IMG/VR virus record: IMGVR_UViG_3300006921_000180
Span: 1 to 22,323 of that record
Strand: one strand, 5' to 3'
Source: a virus
DNA length: 22,323 nucleotides
The first letter of the stretch is position 1. Every line of letters starts with the position of its first letter. The position numbers and the translations under genes were made by a program. The notes under the pieces are model-generated. The model saw only the letters and a program-made list of their open reading frames with translations, was not told the origin of the DNA and did not search any database. Positions 1 to 22,323 of this stretch are shown here, piece by piece.

Positions 1-2678
1 ACTAAGTTTTGAGTGCTACCACCATTAGGTATAGTAATATCCCCTGTAAACGTGGGGTCGTCAAACATAGTAGTTTTACTTTCATTAGTTACATTCCCTA
101 AACCTACATCAGAAGCAGTTGTATTAGTGTTTAGTAATTCATTTGCTGTTATTAGAGTAGAACCATTTGATTTGAAAATATTACTTCCTAGCACAGCCCC
201 AACAGTAGCATTGTTTGCAGGTGCATTTGTGGTTCCCGCAACATCAGACCAGTTTGTATTAGCATTCTTTACTATGGCTGCTGTTAATGCAGTTGAACCG
301 TCAGTGTCAAACATGTTTGTTCCTAGAATAGAACCAACAGTTGCACCACTAGCAGGTAGTGTAGAGAATACTGTTCCTGTTCCACTACCACTGCTTACTA
401 ATTGATTAGCAGTTATCTTAGTTAAGAAATCTTTCATTTTAACTTTTTTATAAGCACTTGCCCCTGTATCATATATAGAGATAATATCATTATCAATGTC
501 TCCACCTGTGCCTAAATCTGTAGCACTATCATATGCAAAACTAACCTTAGCCGTGTTTGCTGTAATTGCATTCGCTTGGGTAGATGTTATGCCCGTTTTA
601 GAAGTATTAGCAGCAATAGCATCTGCTTGTGTAGATGTTATTCCTGTCTTAGCAGTATTAGCAGTAATAGCACTTGCTTGACTACTAGTTATTCCTGTCT
701 TAGCAGTATTCGCTGTAATAGCATCTGCTTGTGATGTAGTAATTCCTGTTTTTGCTGTGTTAGCACTTACTGCCGAAGCATCTGTATAACTTATTTTAGC
801 ATTATTAGCAGTAATATGCCCTGCCTGAGTGCTTGTTATTCCTGTCTTTGCTGTATTATTACTAATTGCTGTGGCTTGTGTAGATGTTATACCTACTTTA
901 GCAGTATTTGCAGCAACTGCTGATGCATCAGTATAACTAATTTTAGATGTGTTAGCAGTTATAGCATCAGCCTGTGTTGATGTTATCCCTGTTTTAGCCG
1001 AGTTATCACTTATGGCAGTTGCCTGTGTTGATGTTATACCTGTCTTTGCTGTGTTTAGTGCTATTGCATCTACTTGAGCAGTAGTTGCACCAACTGTTGC
1101 CCCATCTGTTACATTACCTAATCCTACATTTGCTTTTGTTATAGTAACATTTCCTGTTAAAGCATGTCCATTAACTGTTGTGCTAGTGCTTACTTTATTA
1201 CCTAATGATTGAATTAATCCACCTGATACTGTGCTGTCTAATAGATAGTCTTCTAGTTGTGCTAATGTATCAACAGCATTAGAATCTGCACCAAGTAATG
1301 CATCTATTTTAGCGGCGGCCTTACTTTCAATATATGTATCTGTTAATGTATCTGTTCTACTTTTAGCCGTAGCAAGGTCAGAAGCCTGTGTAGTAGTAAT
1401 TCCAACCTTTGCACTATTTGCAGTTATAGCATTTGCTTGGGAAGTAGTAATACCAACCTTTGCTGTATTATCACTAATAGCAGTTGCTTGAGTAGAAGTA
1501 ATACCAACCTTTGCTGTATTATTACTAATAGCCGTAGCCTGTGTTGAGGTAATACCTACCTTACTAGTATTGTTACTAATAGCAGTTGCTTGAGTAGATG
1601 TTATACCTACTTTATTTGTATTATCAGAAATAGCAGTTGCTTGAGTAGTAGTTATTCCTACTTTAGCAGTATTTGCTGCAATGTCTGATACTTGAGAACT
1701 TGTAGCACCAACAGTAGCACCTGCTGCAATACCCGCAACTTTAGTATTCATAGCGTCTACATCAATAGCACCTGTAACAGTTAATCGGTCTGATTTAACT
1801 TTCATAGCATCTAAATCAATAGCACCACTAACAGTTAGATTACTTATTTTAGTAGCGTCTGCGGTTGGTATTCTTTTATGATTACTACCATCTGGTATAT
1901 CATCTAAATCACCACTAACATCAGTAAGCCCAATACTCAAATCTGTTTTCATTTGAGCAACTGTTCTACCTTCTATTTTAGTTCCATCAACTCTTAGAAA
2001 GTCATTGTCTGCTACATTTGCATTTGCTTCTAATATGCTTCCATCAGAAATACCTTTATTGTGAGTGCTTAGTAAAGTAGCATTAGTGCTTCCTATACTT
2101 GGTAAAGAAATAATGCCTGTATTACCTGGTAAAGAAATAGTGCCTTCTTTATTTATCCTCATTGTTTCTGTGCCATTATTTACTGCTGTAAACTTAGAAT
2201 CTAATTTCTTTATTCCATAGAATTGTATTGGTCTAGCACCTGGACTTGCCCCTGCTAAAACTTTAACTAAACAAACAGGTATATCCCCTGCTGTCAAAGA
2301 AGCCACTAATATATTGCTAGTGGTATTTGCACCACTTACAGAACCTGTTGCTGTTCTTAATGATAGAGTAGTAGCACCTTTTGCTATTACCAAGAAAGCA
2401 TAATGGTCTTTTGCACCACTTGAATCTAAAGTATCGCTTACAGCACCTACAGAAGTTGTTTTATATTCTCCTTCATCAAACCAACCTCCAGAAGTTACAG
2501 TAAATGTGCTTCCGTTTTGAATTACATTTAATCCATGCGCTACAAAAGAACCTGCACTTTGTTGATTTAATGCATTTAGAATACCTGTATGAATACTATC
2601 GGTTCCATCTACTAAACCAGTTGGGTCATCTGCTGTTCCTAATGTGCTTATTCCATCTGTATTTGTCTGTGTTCCCAT
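1..2678 (-). CDS. Tail fibre, repeat-rich, C-terminus cut by window edge
   Basis: The minus frame starting at ATG 2678 stays open to the window edge, giving 892 visible residues. I checked the frame at several points along its length. The start overlaps the stop of the upstream gene (TAATG) and has a strong GAGGTGG Shine-Dalgarno. Residues 1-180 form a beta-rich head. Around 270-315 a roughly 19-residue unit (VSGAIDLDAM / VTGAIDVDAM) occurs twice. Arrays of a 17-residue repeat (consensus AKxGITSTQAxAITANT) follow near residues 338-439 and 544-709. Between them are two motifs usual in phage fibres: an AVDTLAQLEDYL-like helix and GLGNVTDGATVGA. After the arrays, a roughly 56-residue block beginning ATVGSILGTN / ATVGAVLGSN occurs twice, then GLGNVTNESK. 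The role is probably host recognition at the tail tip. The receptor-binding tip lies outside the window. Family by motif style; confidence is high for fibre, none for receptor. Confidence 0.85.
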   Translation of the reverse strand, partial: MGTQTNTDGISTLGTADDPTGLVDGTDSIHTGILNALNQQSAGSFVAHGLNVIQNGSTFTVTSGGWFDEGEYKTTSVGAVSDTLDSSGAKDHYAFLVIAKGATTLSLRTATGSVSGANTTSNILVASLTAGDIPVCLVKVLAGASPGARPIQFYGIKKLDSKFTAVNNGTETMRINKEGTISLPGNTGIISLPSIGSTNATLLSTHNKGISDGSILEANANVADNDFLRVDGTKIEGRTVAQMKTDLSIGLTDVSGDLDDIPDGSNHKRIPTADATKISNLTVSGAIDLDAMKVKSDRLTVTGAIDVDAMNTKVAGIAAGATVGATSSQVSDIAANTAKVGITTTQATAISDNTNKVGITSTQATAISNNTSKVGITSTQATAISNNTAKVGITSTQATAISDNTAKVGITTSQANAITANSAKVGITTTQASDLATAKSRTDTLTDTYIESKAAAKIDALLGADSNAVDTLAQLEDYLLDSTVSGGLIQSLGNKVSTSTTVNGHALTGNVTITKANVGLGNVTDGATVGATTAQVDAIALNTAKTGITSTQATAISDNSAKTGITSTQADAITANTSKISYTDASAVAANTAKVGITSTQATAISNNTAKTGITSTQAGHITANNAKISYTDASAVSANTAKTGITTSQADAITANTAKTGITSSQASAITANTAKTGITSTQADAIAANTSKTGITSTQANAITANTAKVSFAYDSATDLGTGGDIDNDIISIYDTGASAYKKVKMKDFLTKITANQLVSSGSGTGTVFSTLPASGATVGSILGTNMFDTDGSTALTAAIVKNANTNWSDVAGTTNAPANNATVGAVLGSNIFKSNGSTLITANELLNTNTTASDVGLGNVTNESKTTMFDDPTFTGDITIPNGGSTQNL
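552..1049 (-). repeat. Fibre repeat array A: 51-bp units with a duplicated 147-bp super-unit
   Basis: Ten in-frame units. Eight are 17 residues (51 bp) of the AKTGITSTQADAITANT type and two are 15 residues of the AKISYTDASAVSANT type. The order 17+17+15 occurs twice in a row (1049-903 and 902-756), so a 49-residue super-unit seems to have been duplicated. Four simple 17-residue units follow (755-552). Units are similar but not identical in DNA. The regular Asn-Thr and Gly-Ile positions fit a trimeric beta or coiled shaft; that fold is inferred. Confidence 0.85.
1362..1667 (-). repeat. Fibre repeat array B: six 51-bp units
   Basis: Six consecutive 17-residue units of the type AKVGITSTQATAISDNT begin at coordinates 1667, 1616, 1565, 1514, 1463 and 1412. 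The last unit is degenerate (ends SDLATAK). A degenerate copy with GATVGATSSQ precedes the array at about 1668-1722. The middle four units are the closest to one another. The array is in frame with the fibre gene and probably forms part of its shaft. Confidence 0.85.
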
Positions 2679-16788: not shown

Positions 16789-17892
16789 TTAATCAAGTAA
16801 GTATATCAAGTTCTTTTTGCCGTCTAATATAGCGTTGGCTTCTGTTGTTAGAATCTCATGTTTTTTAGTTATATCTATGTTAGAGCCTGTTTCAGCAATT
16901 AATATAGTATTATCATCAGTAACTAATATTTCTGCGGCTACAAGTTTAGTCGTTGCTTCATGTATAGATGAAGGGACTCTACCTCTACCTCTTTCATATG
17001 TTACTCTTATTGAATGATTAGTGTGATAAGGATAATTTGTTCTAAAGAATATCTTTCCTTCTTCATTAATAACCCAATATTCTTCAGTCCTACCACTTGT
17101 TTGATTATCAGTAAATGAATAACTTGTTGTATCTGTTCCTAATAACTGATTTAAAGTGCATATAGTCCCTGCATCTGAAGGTAACTTAGAAGAAATATAA
17201 ACAGATTTACCATCTTCTGTTGGACAAGCATAGAAAAAATCAGATATGTTTCTTGTATCTGTAGTGTTTCTTGTTTGTTTTTGAGTCTTTTGTCCAGTAA
17301 ACGGTGCTGTTTTTGAAGGATATACTTCATTAATTGCGGCACATATTTCTAATACAGTTGTTTTTTGTCCAAAGTGGTCGTAAAAACCATTCGCAGTATT
17401 CTCAGTTAATTCAAAGGTAAGCCCACCAACACCAAATGTTAGTTTGAATGTTCCTGTTTGTGCTGTTGTAGGTGGAGTATAAGTGCAAGAAGCCGATGCC
17501 ATATCAACATAAGTATCTCCTTGCCATACTTCTAATCTTAATATCTTTCTAATCTTCTCACTATTTAGTTGAATGAAACCAACATAGTCTTTACTAGTCC
17601 TAACAGGGTATGCACCTTGTTGATATGGGTCAAAATTATGAACTTCTTTTTCTATTATTTCCGGCCTAAAAGACATCTTTAATTTTTCATCAATTCTACC
17701 TTCAGTCCTTTTAATTATTTTACCTACTGCTGTTATATCTGGAGTAGAAGTGCTTGTAAATGCACCACATTGTAATAAATCTGATACATCAGTATGAGTA
17801 GTATAGTATCCTATACCTTCTAAATAATCTCCAATATTTTGAGTGCCTGATAAAGTTGGAAGATAGTCGCTTTCTGTTTTTAGTCTACTCAT
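16789..17892 (-). CDS. Head-tail connector / adaptor-like protein (367 aa)
   Basis: Two ends look like the helical head-tail adaptor (gp6 type). Residues 48-75 (TPDITAVGKIIKRTEGRIDEKLKMSFRP) read as a typical adaptor helix. Residues 295-367 contain IRVTYERGRGRVPSSIHEATTKLVAAEIL plus a C-terminal helix. Between them lies a beta-rich insert at about 135-265, with GTFKLTFGVGGLTFELTEN and TTVLEICAAINE, reminiscent of the insert in the tail tube protein. The usual adaptor is 100-200 residues, so the insert explains the size. The start ATG overlaps the upstream TGA (ATGA at 17892-17889). It probably joins portal to tail. Confidence 0.6.
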   Translation of the reverse strand: MSRLKTESDYLPTLSGTQNIGDYLEGIGYYTTHTDVSDLLQCGAFTSTSTPDITAVGKIIKRTEGRIDEKLKMSFRPEIIEKEVHNFDPYQQGAYPVRTSKDYVGFIQLNSEKIRKILRLEVWQGDTYVDMASASCTYTPPTTAQTGTFKLTFGVGGLTFELTENTANGFYDHFGQKTTVLEICAAINEVYPSKTAPFTGQKTQKQTRNTTDTRNISDFFYACPTEDGKSVYISSKLPSDAGTICTLNQLLGTDTTSYSFTDNQTSGRTEEYWVINEEGKIFFRTNYPYHTNHSIRVTYERGRGRVPSSIHEATTKLVAAEILVTDDNTILIAETGSNIDITKKHEILTTEANAILDGKKNLIYLLD

Positions 17893-19841
17893 TGTATCGC
17901 CTTCTGTAAGTCATTTAATTGTTTTTTAATGTAGAATAGAATTGTATTTGTTCTACTATCAATGTAAACCCGTTGTCCTCCGGCATCTGTTCCACCCATT
18001 AAATTAGTTTTACTGCCATATGTCTCTTTATCAGGATTGAAAGTATAAGCACCTGATAGTTTATATTTTTCAGCACTTCCTGTAGCCATACTTCTTTTTT
18101 CTGGCTTTCTCTCACTATGCATTCGTCCTATTTTATATTCAGTAGATACAGCATATGATACGCTTACTAAACTAAATACATCATATATATTCTCTAATAT
18201 ATATTCAGCATTACCACTTATACTTATATCCTCATCATTTAGTAAATCCTCTCTTCCTTTTCTCTCTTCATCTGTTGGGTGAACAACTGATAATACAATA
18301 ACCATAGTGCCTACTTTGTTTGGTATTAATGCCCTATCTAAATGGTTTTTTAATTCTCTTGAATTAGATGCCCCATTTTTTAAATCAATTACAGCAGTCT
18401 CTAAATTAGTCCAACTGTTATTAGTAAAGAATGTTTTATCTGAATCCTTGTTATGTAATATAGAACGGTTTTTTGTTGGCAATACATTACTTCTATCTTT
18501 TCTAGTTTTAACTGTTTCTTTAGTATATTGTGCCTGTTCAAACTCATTCATACCTAATGGTTTTTTCATATTAGATTTAAACTCTACAACATCACTTATC
18601 AATGCCTTTTCCCTTTTAATAAATCCTTTTTTGCCAGGGACTTTACCCTCGTCTAAAAGAGCGTCATATGCTGTTTGTGTCATAACACCTGCATCAAGCA
18701 TTTCACCTGCTAATTGAGCAATTTCATCCATTTGACCTTCCCTAAATTGTCTAACTATTTCTTCTGCATCCAAATCTCCACTAGATACTTCATCTTCATA
18801 ATCAAATTGTTTTTCTTCATGTAAAGTATTCCATGCGATTTTAAGATTTATTCTTTCTAGTGTTTCTTCTTCTAATTCAGATAATGTATAATCAGGATGA
18901 GGATTGTATACTTTTATATTACTATAATCATATTTATCATCTTCCTTAATTTCATCCTCTGGCATGTTTTCTTCTTTAATAATTAATTCTAAAGACTTTT
19001 TAATTTTCTTTGCTTGTTCCATTGCTTCTGCTAATGCTTGTTCGGTATTATCCCTACTACCCTGTTTATCTTTAGGCGCAGTTGGGGCTATATCTCCTCT
19101 TCTACCTCTTAAAACTTCAACTGATATACCTGCTTCCTCAAACAATTTCTCCATTATTCTTTGAAAATCTATTTCAATAACATATTCTTGTTCTTGAAAT
19201 GTAGCCTTATGAGTTCCATAACGTAGTGGTAATTTAACAGGGGATTTATTACTTACTTCAATGGTAAAATAACGATTGCCATCATCCGTAGTATTTATTT
19301 TTTCTAAAGCAGGTTCATAAGGAAGTTGTTTATCAGATGCTTGCCATATCTTTTTACTTTCCATGCCTTTTGTATGTGAAGACATTATATGGTCTGTGCC
19401 TATTTCAGTATTAACATCTGAAACTCTAACAGTTTTACCTTCATCAGTTAGTCCAGATTCTCCAGATAATGCTCTTTCTATTTGTTCATAATTACCAACG
19501 TATGGTTTTAATTTTTCTAATAATTCTGCTGTTGTTAATTCCTGTATTGCTTTCCAAGCATAATCAACATGTAGTTTATATTCGTTTTCATCAAAATCTA
19601 AATCTTTATCTTCTTCAGCAACCTTATTCATAAAACTAGGCATTAAAAAATAAGTTAAATCATCTTCTATATCATTATAGTTATTATCACTAAATGGAGA
19701 ACAAATGTATTGTAGCATTAATTTAAACAATGGGTGATTATCTACATCACCACCTCTCATGCTAGAATCGAGTTCTAACTTTTGTCCTATTGTGTAGTCT
19801 CGTCTACTATATCTAATAGTTACGGGTATGTTGATGTCCAT
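17889..19841 (-). CDS. Large acidic protein of unknown function (650 aa)
   Basis: Not recognised. The protein is hydrophilic and acidic, with no signal peptide or membrane segment. Residues about 265-345 are highly charged and helical (coiled-coil-like), including ALAEAMEQAKKIKKSLELII and a run of acidic residues (PEDEIKEDDKYDY). The C-terminal third alternates strands and helices (GTMVIVLSVVHPTDEERKG, EYILENIYDVFSLVSVSYAV) and ends VYIDSRTNTILFYIKKQ. It lies between the Q/P-rich protein and the adaptor, hence likely a virion or head-assembly protein. GAGGGGT precedes ATG 19841, and its TGA overlaps the next ATG. It could be a neck or internal virion protein; sure only that it is a real gene. 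Confidence 0.8.
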   Translation of the reverse strand: MDINIPVTIRYSRRDYTIGQKLELDSSMRGGDVDNHPLFKLMLQYICSPFSDNNYNDIEDDLTYFLMPSFMNKVAEEDKDLDFDENEYKLHVDYAWKAIQELTTAELLEKLKPYVGNYEQIERALSGESGLTDEGKTVRVSDVNTEIGTDHIMSSHTKGMESKKIWQASDKQLPYEPALEKINTTDDGNRYFTIEVSNKSPVKLPLRYGTHKATFQEQEYVIEIDFQRIMEKLFEEAGISVEVLRGRRGDIAPTAPKDKQGSRDNTEQALAEAMEQAKKIKKSLELIIKEENMPEDEIKEDDKYDYSNIKVYNPHPDYTLSELEEETLERINLKIAWNTLHEEKQFDYEDEVSSGDLDAEEIVRQFREGQMDEIAQLAGEMLDAGVMTQTAYDALLDEGKVPGKKGFIKREKALISDVVEFKSNMKKPLGMNEFEQAQYTKETVKTRKDRSNVLPTKNRSILHNKDSDKTFFTNNSWTNLETAVIDLKNGASNSRELKNHLDRALIPNKVGTMVIVLSVVHPTDEERKGREDLLNDEDISISGNAEYILENIYDVFSLVSVSYAVSTEYKIGRMHSERKPEKRSMATGSAEKYKLSGAYTFNPDKETYGSKTNLMGGTDAGGQRVYIDSRTNTILFYIKKQLNDLQKAIQ

Positions 19842-19850
19842 CTAAACCCC

Positions 19851-20588
19851 TCATGCTAACCAAGCCGCCCATGCCGCACCCTTTTGAATCATCTTTCCTA
19901 GTCCTATACCAGAACCTGGGGGTGTATACGATGGTTGTCCGGTAGCAGGGTCTATCCAATAGGGATTACCCATTGTATCATAACCTTGCGGCGGTACAGG
20001 GTATCCTGATGGATTGTTCATTGCTTGATGTTGTTGTTGCATCATATTATTTGCTTGAACCATTGGGTTTCCTCCACTAATTTGTGCAGGGTTTAATCCA
20101 CCCGCATTAGGTAATCCTTGTTGCGGTTGATATTGTTGTGTAGGTTGTTGATATTGTTGTTGTGGTGCTTGTCCTTGAGGCAAACTAGGAGTAAATCCTT
20201 GAGTCTCTAAATATTGTTGTCTAGCCATTTTTCTTTGAACAACTACCTCGGTATTTACTGCCGCCGCAAGTAATGCTTGAACATCTAATGTAATATTTGC
20301 TTGTGTTATACCATTATAGTCAGTTAAACAATCAGGGTGTATTACCATTTCTCCACTAGAACCTTGAGATAATTTTAGTTTAGAAAGAAGTTGGCTTACT
20401 ACTCTTTCGGTAGTATCTTCCATAAGTTTTTCTAATGCCATCAAAAAACCTTCACCATGATATTCAAAAAACTCTTCTACATGATTTGTTTGTAATGTTA
20501 AAAGGTTATTAGTTGCCTTAAAATTGGCCGCCGATTGTGCGTCTATCGCTGATACTATATTGCTGTTACTTGTTCCTAATAATCCCAT
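19851..20588 (-). CDS. Gln/Pro-rich protein of unknown function (245 aa)
   Basis: Two-part protein. Residues 1-125 are helical, including VEEFFEYHGEGFLMALEKLMED and TTERVVSQLLSKLK. Residues about 130-225 are low complexity, rich in Gln, Pro, Tyr, Gly and Asn (QQQYQQPTQQYQPQQ, YPVPPQGYDTMGNPYW). The end, GKMIQKGAAWAAWLA, is a short amphipathic stretch that might touch a membrane or partner. The disordered Q/P tail resembles flexible linkers of scaffold or capsid-interacting proteins, but there is no firm match. Only one base separates its ATG from the upstream stop, so translation is probably coupled. Confidence 0.75.
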   Translation of the reverse strand: MGLLGTSNSNIVSAIDAQSAANFKATNNLLTLQTNHVEEFFEYHGEGFLMALEKLMEDTTERVVSQLLSKLKLSQGSSGEMVIHPDCLTDYNGITQANITLDVQALLAAAVNTEVVVQRKMARQQYLETQGFTPSLPQGQAPQQQYQQPTQQYQPQQGLPNAGGLNPAQISGGNPMVQANNMMQQQHQAMNNPSGYPVPPQGYDTMGNPYWIDPATGQPSYTPPGSGIGLGKMIQKGAAWAAWLA

Positions 20589-20589
20589 A

Positions 20590-21300
20590 TTATTCTACTC
20601 CTTCTAAAAATACATTGTCTATTTGTTGCGCTAGTGATTCTTCTGGTAATGATTGTTGTTTAATACTAGTGCCTGTTGTCATTAATGATATTACTCTGTT
20701 ATTAATTGCGTGACTTTCCATCGTTAATCTGAATAACTCATCTTCCGGTGTTTCTACCGACATTTGAGGAGGGCGTATAGTCCAACCACTTGCCGACAAT
20801 GCTTCAATATCGGATTGCCTTAATGAAGTTAGCGGTGCAGATTGAAGCATCTTAGGAACAGTCGGTTTAGGAATATATGCACTAAATGACAATCCATGTT
20901 CGTCTGCTATAATTTGTTGTTCTAGCATTTCATATTGTTTATGTAATTGTGCGTGTTTATTACAATATGTTCCTCTCATGGGATAACCTTTTCTAACTTT
21001 GTGTAAAGGTAAAGGGGGTCTAGCAGGGTCTGATGATTCCCATACTTTATGTGTTCCACATACTACACATCTATCTCTAGTATTAAACTTAAATCCTATC
21101 GGCATTTTTAAGAATGTTTTTTTCTCCGGCCATAAAATCTTAACCATTTCTTTAACTTGTTTTTTTGGCTTACTACTTTTGTATTCATATTTCATTACTG
21201 AACCTGCGGCTCTAGCATACTTTATTGGTGGTAAAAACGCATTGTTTACAGTAGCGTTACTTGCACCAATTAAACTTGGGGGTTGGTATGTCATCGTCAT
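20590..21300 (-). CDS. Protein with a Cys2/Cys-His zinc site (236 aa)
   Basis: A likely zinc-binding site is formed by C78-x2-C81 (CVVCG) and C113-x2-H116 (YCNKH), about 31 residues apart, as in treble-clef or zinc-ribbon folds. The N-terminal part is basic (KSSKPKKQVKEMVK), and the segment between the cysteine pairs is Pro/Lys-rich. The C-terminal half (142-236) has two predicted helical parts and a Pro-rich link. It could bind nucleic acid or a protein partner during assembly or regulation. AAGGAG, 10 bases upstream of the ATG, lies inside the preceding 22-codon ORF, whose TGA overlaps this start (ATGA). Exact function unknown. Confidence 0.75.
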   Translation of the reverse strand: MTMTYQPPSLIGASNATVNNAFLPPIKYARAAGSVMKYEYKSSKPKKQVKEMVKILWPEKKTFLKMPIGFKFNTRDRCVVCGTHKVWESSDPARPPLPLHKVRKGYPMRGTYCNKHAQLHKQYEMLEQQIIADEHGLSFSAYIPKPTVPKMLQSAPLTSLRQSDIEALSASGWTIRPPQMSVETPEDELFRLTMESHAINNRVISLMTTGTSIKQQSLPEESLAQQIDNVFLEGVE

Positions 21301-21365
21301 TTATTTCTCTCCTTACATTCTTTACATTGACAAAGCATTCCCATTGAGCAGTTATCTGTTATCAT
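21297..21365 (-). CDS. 22-residue Cys-rich micro-ORF locked between GTPase and zinc protein genes
   Basis: ATG 21365 shares a base with the GTPase stop (TAATG), and its TGA overlaps the next gene's ATG (ATGA, 21300-21297), so it fits the gap exactly. GAGG lies 7 bases before the start. The peptide has four cysteines, C6-x5-C12-x-C14-x2-C17 (LCQCKECKERNK near the end), enough to bind one zinc. It may be a real micro-protein, perhaps working with the zinc-site protein encoded next, or a coupling leader that carries the next gene's AAGGAG. The double overlap argues strongly that ribosomes read it. Confidence 0.6.
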   Translation of the reverse strand: MITDNCSMGMLCQCKECKERNK

Positions 21366-22033
21366 TAGTAGTCCTCTATCATTGTTGTAATTCCTCGATA
21401 AACCATTTCTGCTTCTGACTTTGCACTTACTATATATTTATGAGTCGGTATTCCTTTATCGTTTAGTTTTTGCATTCCGTCTTTAAACGCCTCAAATATT
21501 GGATGTTTTTGTATATCTGTATATTCGTATCGGTCTTTCCAAATATCAAACTTATTCGCCCATACGCCTACTGCTATTGGATAGTCATGTATTTTTTTCT
21601 TACCTGATTTGTTTATTATATCCCAATGGTTTGATGTTATACAATCTACTAAAAACTTCCAACACAATTGCTGTTCTATATCTATATGTTTTGCTAAATG
21701 TCTATCATCAATCATAAAAATAATATATTTTACTTTCCTACGTTTCATGTCTAATAGCCATTCGCCCCAGTATAATGATTCACCTCCTATGTCTGATGTT
21801 CTTATTGTGTGTGTATCTCCATCAATTTTAATTGTTTTCCTAAGCGGTTTATGTGCGCCTACTGTTCTTTCTTTAATTTCTGGAACATCACCTCTAGTCC
21901 GTAGTTGATGATGTAAGGTAGTTTTACCTACTTGAGTAGCACCGTATATTCCAAAAGAATGAGGATTAATTTTTTTCCAAAATAATCCTATTTGTTCAAC
22001 TATAATTATAGCAAAACCTGCCATTACCGACAT
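21365..22033 (-). CDS. Ras/Arf-like small GTPase (222 aa)
   Basis: All five G motifs are present and well spaced: G1 GATQVGKT (31-38), G2 T57 in RTVG, G3 DIGG (81-84), G4 NKFD (160-163) and G5 SAK (203-205). The DxGG form is like Arf, G-alpha and Rag/Gtr proteins, but the residue at the catalytic Gln position is Glu (E85), suggesting slow hydrolysis or another mechanism. Residues 4-19 are hydrophobic (AGFAIIIVEQIGLFW), a possible membrane anchor. GAGG precedes ATG 22033 by 7 bases. It follows a small membrane protein and precedes the Cys-rich micro-ORF. Small GTPases are rare in tailed viruses. It might steer virion assembly, membrane association or a host pathway; the role is unknown. Confidence 0.85.
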   Translation of the reverse strand: MSVMAGFAIIIVEQIGLFWKKINPHSFGIYGATQVGKTTLHHQLRTRGDVPEIKERTVGAHKPLRKTIKIDGDTHTIRTSDIGGESLYWGEWLLDMKRRKVKYIIFMIDDRHLAKHIDIEQQLCWKFLVDCITSNHWDIINKSGKKKIHDYPIAVGVWANKFDIWKDRYEYTDIQKHPIFEAFKDGMQKLNDKGIPTHKYIVSAKSEAEMVYRGITTMIEDY

Positions 22034-22042
22034 ATTAATTCC

Positions 22043-22267
22043 TCAAAATAAATGATGATAAAAGTTCCAAAAACCCTCCCATGCCGAAGCATACATGTTT
22101 ATGCCTAATAGTGGAAGAAAGTGTCCTACACAGAATCCTGTAACTGTTGATATAGCACCCCAAAAATAAAATCTTGCTCTTAGAAACCAAACATCAGCAG
22201 AATGCGCTCTTTGCATATCGTATGCTAGAGCAGTTTCATCCATTCCAAATGCTATTGTTTCCAACAT
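22043..22267 (-). CDS. Small membrane protein (74 aa)
   Basis: A single hydrophobic segment at residues about 33-56 (FYFWGAISTVTGFCVGHFLPLLGI) is preceded by two arginines (RAR), which suggests the N-terminus inside the cell. The C-terminus is aromatic (WEGFWNFYHHLF). There is no signal peptidase motif. Only nine bases separate it from the GTPase gene, so both are probably made together; a membrane anchor or receptor for the GTPase is one idea. A holin is also possible, but the tiny size with one segment and no dual start does not decide it. GTGAT precedes the ATG at moderate strength. Confidence 0.7.
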   Translation of the reverse strand: MLETIAFGMDETALAYDMQRAHSADVWFLRARFYFWGAISTVTGFCVGHFLPLLGINMYASAWEGFWNFYHHLF

Positions 22268-22276
22268 CTATATCAC

Positions 22277-22323
22277 TTAGGGTTCAAGTCTCGCCAGAAA
22301 GGAAGGCTTTACTTCTTGCACAG
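22277..22323 (-). CDS. C-terminal end of an upstream gene (14 residues visible)
   Basis: One minus frame from the window edge reads VQEVKPSFLARLEP and stops at TAA 22279-22277, nine bases before the membrane protein start. The other frames stop too and give less protein-like reads. With so little sequence the product cannot be named; it is listed because gene packing makes a gene end here likely. Confidence 0.4.
   Translation of the reverse strand, partial: VQEVKPSFLARLEP

Follow-up and report, generated by a model that had tools for sequence, protein, structure and literature searches.

A Ras-like small GTPase gene in a conserved block of head-module genes in magrovirus-like marine archaeal tailed viruses

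In cells, small GTPases are a hallmark of membrane regulation; those encoded by viruses are known mainly as genes of giant viruses. We know of no tailed virus in which a late virion step depends on a small GTPase, and to our knowledge the exit of archaeal tailed viruses from their hosts is itself poorly understood. Among prokaryotic GTPases, MglA has a G3 motif without the Asp found in other GTPases, and the group 1 MglA proteins carry an intrinsic arginine finger, an Arg adjacent to the G2 threonine (PMC4316618). The Ras mutant Q61E has a raised intrinsic GTPase activity (PMC2987813, PMC10515638). The gene content of the magroviruses of marine group II archaea (PMC10160649, PMC10768690, PMC12999244) is matched by longer relatives of the DNA analysed here, and in a group A magrovirus the ligase gene lies next to that of the prohead protease (PMC7318539). 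No GTPase is mentioned in these magrovirus papers, and an earlier annotation elsewhere is possible.

The DNA analysed (the window) is the whole stretch of 22,323 nucleotides in IMG/VR virus record IMGVR_UViG_3300006921_000180, positions 1 to 22,323. The features that concern us, together with the evidence for each, are:

16789-17892, minus strand: neck/head-completion-like protein, phrog_17057 (PHROG match, relation to gp125)
17889-19841, minus strand: long variable protein of 650 aa, after the block (open reading frame, comparison with sister loci)
19851-20588, minus strand: 'MGLFGT' protein of 245 aa, fifth gene of the block, with a conserved N-terminal part, a Q/P-rich middle and a short conserved C-terminal stretch, AWAkWLa (open reading frame, loci, consensus)
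20590-21300, minus strand: zinc-finger-like protein (CVVCG...YCxKH) of 236 aa, fourth gene of the block (open reading frame, loci, consensus)
21365-22033, minus strand: predicted small GTPase of 222 aa, with a hydrophobic to amphipathic helix at the N-terminus (residues 2-22) and, after it, a G domain of Ras/Arf-like type that contains G1-G5 (open reading frame, motifs, AF2 model, fold matches)
22043-22267, minus strand: TM1, 74 aa, with a single predicted transmembrane (TM) helix; its N-terminal motif, lAYdlqRAHSAD, is conserved (open reading frame, TM prediction, consensus)
22277-22323, minus strand: C-terminal end of TM2 (...VQEVKPSFLARLEP stop), the rest being lost at the contig end (window sequence, full-length homologues)

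At the other end of the window, positions 3-2678 (minus strand) hold the end of a presumed tail-fibre gene, in whose translation a unit of about 14 residues (variants of AISDNTAKVGITSTQA) is repeated in tandem many times.

The original prediction had placed a small GTPase with a full set of G1-G5 motifs at 21365-22033, and the open reading frame is indeed real and, by motifs and predicted fold, of the bona fide Ras-superfamily type. G1 reads G31-A-T-Q-V-G36-K37-T38-T39, G2 is T57, G3 is D81-I-G83-G84-E85, G4 is N160-K161-F-D163 and G5 is S203-A204-K205; each element of the pattern for the Ras-like small GTPase superfamily (GxxxxGK[ST], a G2 Thr, DxxG, [NT]KxD and SA[KL]) is represented, which assigns the predicted protein to that superfamily by sequence. 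Relatives were sought in IMG/VR by three overlapping scans giving 208, 226 and 387 confirmed stretches, up to 80 of which were used from each, and the matches listed in these scans and in scans with the capsid gene supplied 154 distinct full-length GTPases, the lowest identity to the window being 53%. Residues G31, G36, K37, T38, T39, T57, D81, G83, G84, N160, K161, D163, S203, A204 and K205 are invariant in all 154, so the predicted motif set is complete across the family, and this invariance is far above chance. Pairwise dN/dS values between the window gene and seven relatives are 0.07-0.14; the gene is under purifying selection. A chance motif match is ruled out by the 154 conserved relatives and the low dN/dS, and an ATPase or other P-loop class by the NKxD and SAK motifs together with the fold. 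As judged from sequence and model, the gene product would be a GTP-binding, most likely GTP-hydrolysing small G protein. We also considered a defence or anti-defence gene, for which there was no PADLOC match.

An AF2 model of the GTPase was built from 37 diverse sequences (pLDDT 72, pTM 0.73) and superseded one from 23 less diverse sequences (pLDDT 66). It predicts the helix at 2-22, then a canonical G domain, a single-domain Ras-like alpha/beta fold with the canonical order of strands and helices, and an extra short hairpin near 136-145. The best fold match found with VIA-align is ARF6 (Z 15.5, 161 residues, 2.6 A), followed by Arf1 (Z 15.2), Arl1 (15.0), SR-beta (14.7), the Asgard ArfR GerdArfR1 (14.2), G-alpha (14.1), Rag (13.9) and Rab (about 13.7); this ranking covers the structures listed by the searches, and the absence of MglA and Rup from among them carries no weight. 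The predicted fold is closest to Arf and SR-beta, with Rab, Rag and G-alpha within about 2 Z units (about 13-15.5), a range over which Z does not separate the subfamilies. Structural comparison, which had been proposed as a check, thus points to a fold of the Arf/SR-beta/G-alpha/Rag type and not to another class of ATPase. By sequence, the window GTPase has sub-threshold matches to MMR_HSR1, SRPRB, Ras and Roc in Pfam and to TIGR00231 (small_GTP), with none above the curated Pfam or NCBIfam cut-offs and none to a PDB sequence.

The motif DIGGE had been taken to stand in place of DxGGQ, and the protein accordingly to be a slow switch or to need a partner for catalysis. E85 (codon GAA), at the position of Ras Gln61, was read correctly, and the window thus lacks the DxGGQ with catalytic Gln that is characteristic of Arf, Sar and SR-beta, but the substitution is not family-wide: Glu occupies position 85 in 93 of the 154 relatives and Gln, giving DxGGQ, in the other 61, with no third residue. 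In a maximum-likelihood analysis of 63 sequences with column 85 removed, the tree requires at least five switches between the two; Glu and Gln replace each other repeatedly under strict constraint. Because they interchange, and because Ras Q61E is raised in activity, Glu85 is no argument for a slow enzyme, and that interpretation is rejected; nor is a need for a partner supported, since Arg56, adjoining the G2 Thr57, is invariant (154/154). GTP would be hydrolysed by way of Glu/Gln85 and an in-cis arginine finger, Arg56, so that an external GAP arginine would not be needed. From sequence and from the analogy with MglA it is reasonable to infer catalysis in cis by Arg56, a putative role that falls in the region of the P-loop and switch I, the lowest-confidence parts of the AF2 model.

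Across the loci compared, the gene order is DNA-ligase-domain protein, prohead protease, major capsid protein (MCP), two or three small proteins, TM2, TM1, GTPase, zinc-finger-like protein, MGLFGT protein, variable long protein, neck protein and tail proteins; a portal-like gene lies further upstream (L418:1-1009). The GTPase always sits between the capsid and neck genes and is a core gene, and the question of whether it is always beside the tail block is answered for the IMG/VR loci: it is always beside the head/tail block. TM1 adjoins the GTPase in 281/281 loci with a median gap of 6 bases (it lies 9 bases upstream in the window), and the gaps around the GTPase are short, with medians of 6-13 bases. 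Loci were also collected by capsid protein, independently of the GTPase. Over the interval from the MCP to the neck gene (phrog_17057) as right border, all five block genes are present in 202 loci, none in 50 loci, which belong to related archaeal tailed viruses, and only some in 0; therefore, the five genes come and go as a unit. These loci are IMG/VR fragments among which contigs can recur, so distinct proteins were counted as well, and the same all-or-none split is seen in 115 distinct capsid proteins with the block and 38 without. In the nearest capsid group the GTPase is present in 56/56 loci with enough sequence.

Median pairwise identity is 0.64 for the GTPase and 0.65 for the MCP, compared with 0.57 for the MGLFGT protein and the protease, 0.53 for the zinc-finger-like protein, 0.50-0.52 for the neck and ligase-domain proteins and 0.48-0.49 for the TM proteins; the GTPase is conserved about as strongly as the major capsid protein. 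No Pfam or PHROG family of known function explains its four neighbours in the block, the zinc-finger-like protein having a weak match to phrog_30888 (unknown function). By hydrophobicity both TM1 and TM2 contain TM-like helices, and for the full-length TM2 homologues, of about 125-150 aa, two TM helices are predicted, while their C-termini carry a conserved 'FL' motif. Otherwise variable, the TM2 tail has at its very end a short conserved peptide, P-S/T-F-L (consensus FL), seen for example at window 22277-22323 (minus strand), which has the look of a docking motif.

A membrane location had been suggested for the GTPase from its hydrophobic N-terminus. The helix at 2-22 is real, hydrophobic and conserved, with a nearly invariant Glu13 (149/154), but in most members it falls below typical TM hydrophobicity and is between transmembrane and amphipathic in type: Kyte-Doolittle means reach 2.06, the median is 0.56, and a TM-like mean is found in 23/154 relatives, the others being closer to amphipathic. 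Given this helix and the two adjoining predicted TM proteins, membrane association of the GTPase is plausible.

The window neck gene is related to those of the Druskaviridae haloviruses, the C-terminal part of its product being related to gp125 of halovirus HVTV-1. The longer relatives have a capsid protein with 26-29% identity to the HVTV-1 MCP, and their Pfam matches include a prohead protease, an SU10-type MCP, a DNA-ligase-domain protein, a terminase, a PolB split in two, ERCC4, and portal-like, RFC-like, TFB-like and UvrD-like proteins. By gene content these viruses look like magroviruses (order Magrovirales) with a Druskaviridae-related head module; the longer relatives, in contrast to the window itself, carry what appears to be the Magrovirales replication set (PolB, clamp loader, ERCC4 nuclease) and a predicted ATP-dependent ligase next to the prohead protease. 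We infer from this kinship that the hosts are Poseidoniales (marine group II archaea). No MCM gene was found in the long contigs and a chaperonin was found in one sister contig only, so we do not place the viruses in Aoguangviridae or Apasviridae. A sister magrovirus-like clade has the same protease, MCP, decoration and neck genes and never the GTPase; there the long protein (about 600-950 aa) and then the neck protein come straight after a small gene of the capsid-decoration type. A profile search for the GTPase in 12 records of block-less relatives (up to 111 kb) gave no match.

Several other features of these genomes were observed. The family B DNA polymerase is encoded by two open reading frames (L420:62-1762 and L420:2103-3029) in most long contigs of the GTPase clade and by one in the sister contigs. 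The gene immediately ahead of that for the prohead protease (L064:3226-5847 and homologues in the two clades) encodes an ATP-dependent DNA ligase domain (PF01068, E 1.4e-28), which is odd among head genes. Many unrelated small late proteins begin with the tag 'M..W..ILK', present in 27/364 open reading frames against about 0.6 expected from internal motif density; sites are in the G001, G003 and G013 contigs (L416-L430), for example L417:15186-15860 and L417:15857-16189, G003 at 42.8-56.1 kb and G013 at 72.6-77.0 kb. In one virus a 71-aa open reading frame with the tag (L031:10669-10884) lies between the GTPase and zinc-finger-like genes. The tag is similar to the sequences that target T4 head proteins to the capsid (PMC5694885) and may, by this analogy, mark proteins packaged in the head.

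The original prediction had called such a GTPase very unusual in a tailed virus, and the searches agree: there are, at the sensitivity of these searches, no relatives in 50,697 phage records (INPHARED, tblastn) and no PHROG match, and in the BFVD viral structure library the significant fold matches are only in giant viruses (GTP-binding, Ras-like or uncharacterised proteins). A pattern scan of 84,980 genomes, reaching fairly close relatives only, found no close cellular relative, and its sole match is a viral contig. This contig, L082 (NZMJ01000101.1), filed under a Maricaulis sp. MAG, has a complete viral head block with a GTPase 77% identical to that of the window, and is evidently viral DNA binned with the MAG. 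Recent capture of the GTPase from a host is rejected on the lack of a close cellular relative in that scan and on the viral head block of the Maricaulis match.

Fixed gene order, short gaps and capsid-like identity argue for a link of the GTPase with late, virion-related functions. The reading that we favour, tentatively and at somewhat less than an even chance, is a membrane-bound GTPase switch acting with TM1 and TM2 in a late step, assembly or completion or exit, at the host membrane. The GTPase would be expressed together with the virion genes, and its N-terminal helix and the two small membrane proteins encoded directly before it would keep it at the cytoplasmic membrane of the host; its nucleotide state would turn the membrane-bound complex on or off, and at a late stage this complex would serve head assembly or completion, or virus exit, as a platform for membrane docking or timing. 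Against this, heads of the same kind are made by related archaeal tailed viruses that do not carry the block, which is therefore not a general requirement of assembly. A fuller version, in which a five-gene complex (GTPase, two membrane proteins, zinc-finger-like protein and linker protein) is an obligatory GTP-driven membrane switch tying late virion building or exit to a small GTPase in marine archaeal tailed viruses, is more doubtful.

We rank a platform for assembly or exit above an entry role, a host-directed effector, a lysis timer and a non-hydrolysing structural switch. An entry role, in which virions (or their necks) would carry the GTPase along with its membrane partners and these would act on the next host's membrane as DNA is delivered, is unlikely, if not strongly so. 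The gene position between capsid-decoration and neck genes, a conservation equal to that of the MCP and the membrane-interacting partners TM1 and TM2 would all suit such a component, but no packaging signal was seen, the GTPase being without the N-terminal W..ILK tag of many other late proteins (the tag as a packaging mark is a guess), and we know of no precedent for a GTP switch inside a virion, which also speaks against it.

Slightly less probable again is a host-directed effector, a GTPase that would imitate or disturb a Ras-like switch of the cell (in polarity, vesicle formation or division) and so remodel the infected archaeon. The fold is common to cellular Arf/Rab-type switches and Rab-like GTPases occur in giant viruses; however, this GTPase is strictly embedded in a virion gene block, is very highly conserved and has no close cellular relative in the genomes scanned, and no roadblock/MglB-type partner (Robl_LC7) was matched in six contigs of 80-99 kb, a weaker test than one on full genomes. 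A role in polarity or in altering host cell biology, as first suggested, gives way to a virion-related job, to which the strict linkage with virion genes rather points.

An exit or lysis timer, in which TM1 and TM2 are holin-like or membrane-remodelling proteins whose timing is set by the GTPase, is improbable: two small TM proteins (with one and two helices) do lie directly before the GTPase, and no known family explains the four neighbours otherwise, but TM2 differs from simple holins in its C-terminal tail, which is long, charged and conserved, and in the conserved peptide at its C-terminus. We give very little credence to a nucleotide-gated structural part, with GTP as a cofactor or one-shot switch in the head or neck without repeated hydrolysis, since Glu85 in the majority of members and the position beside head genes are outweighed by the Gln/Glu interchange and the higher activity of Ras Q61E, which argue that both states are catalytically competent, and by the invariant R56.

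Our preferred reading, a late membrane switch, raises the question of GTP control of tailed-virus assembly at, or exit through, the archaeal membrane; here a small GTPase is among the core genes of a widespread group of marine archaeal viruses and is locked to two membrane proteins.

Among known systems, Magrovirales and Druskaviridae agree with these viruses in their prohead protease, HK97-type capsid protein, neck gene and gene order, whereas Druskaviridae and the sister magrovirus-like clade are without the five-gene block. The Rab/Ras-like GTPases of giant viruses (e.g. the mimivirus Rab, PDB 5xc5) are likewise virus-encoded proteins of Ras-like fold, but the viruses that encode them infect eukaryotes, whereas the gene described here belongs to the core set of archaeal tailed viruses, and the genome scan found no close relative of it in cells. 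MglA is similarly a single-domain GTPase of the prokaryotic world with an Arg adjacent to the G2 threonine (R56-T57 here, 154/154; PMC4316618), but the viral GTPase keeps the G3 Asp (D81 in 154/154); this Asp, and the lack of a roadblock gene in the six contigs, rule out membership of MglA. With Arf, Sar and SR-beta, including the Asgard ArfR, the viral protein shares the predicted fold and DxGG in G3, and its predicted N-terminal helix before the G domain may, like theirs, interact with the membrane; it differs in its place in a tailed-virus head module, in Glu instead of Gln in 60% of members, in A/S and not W before DxGG, and in Arg56 beside the G2 Thr.
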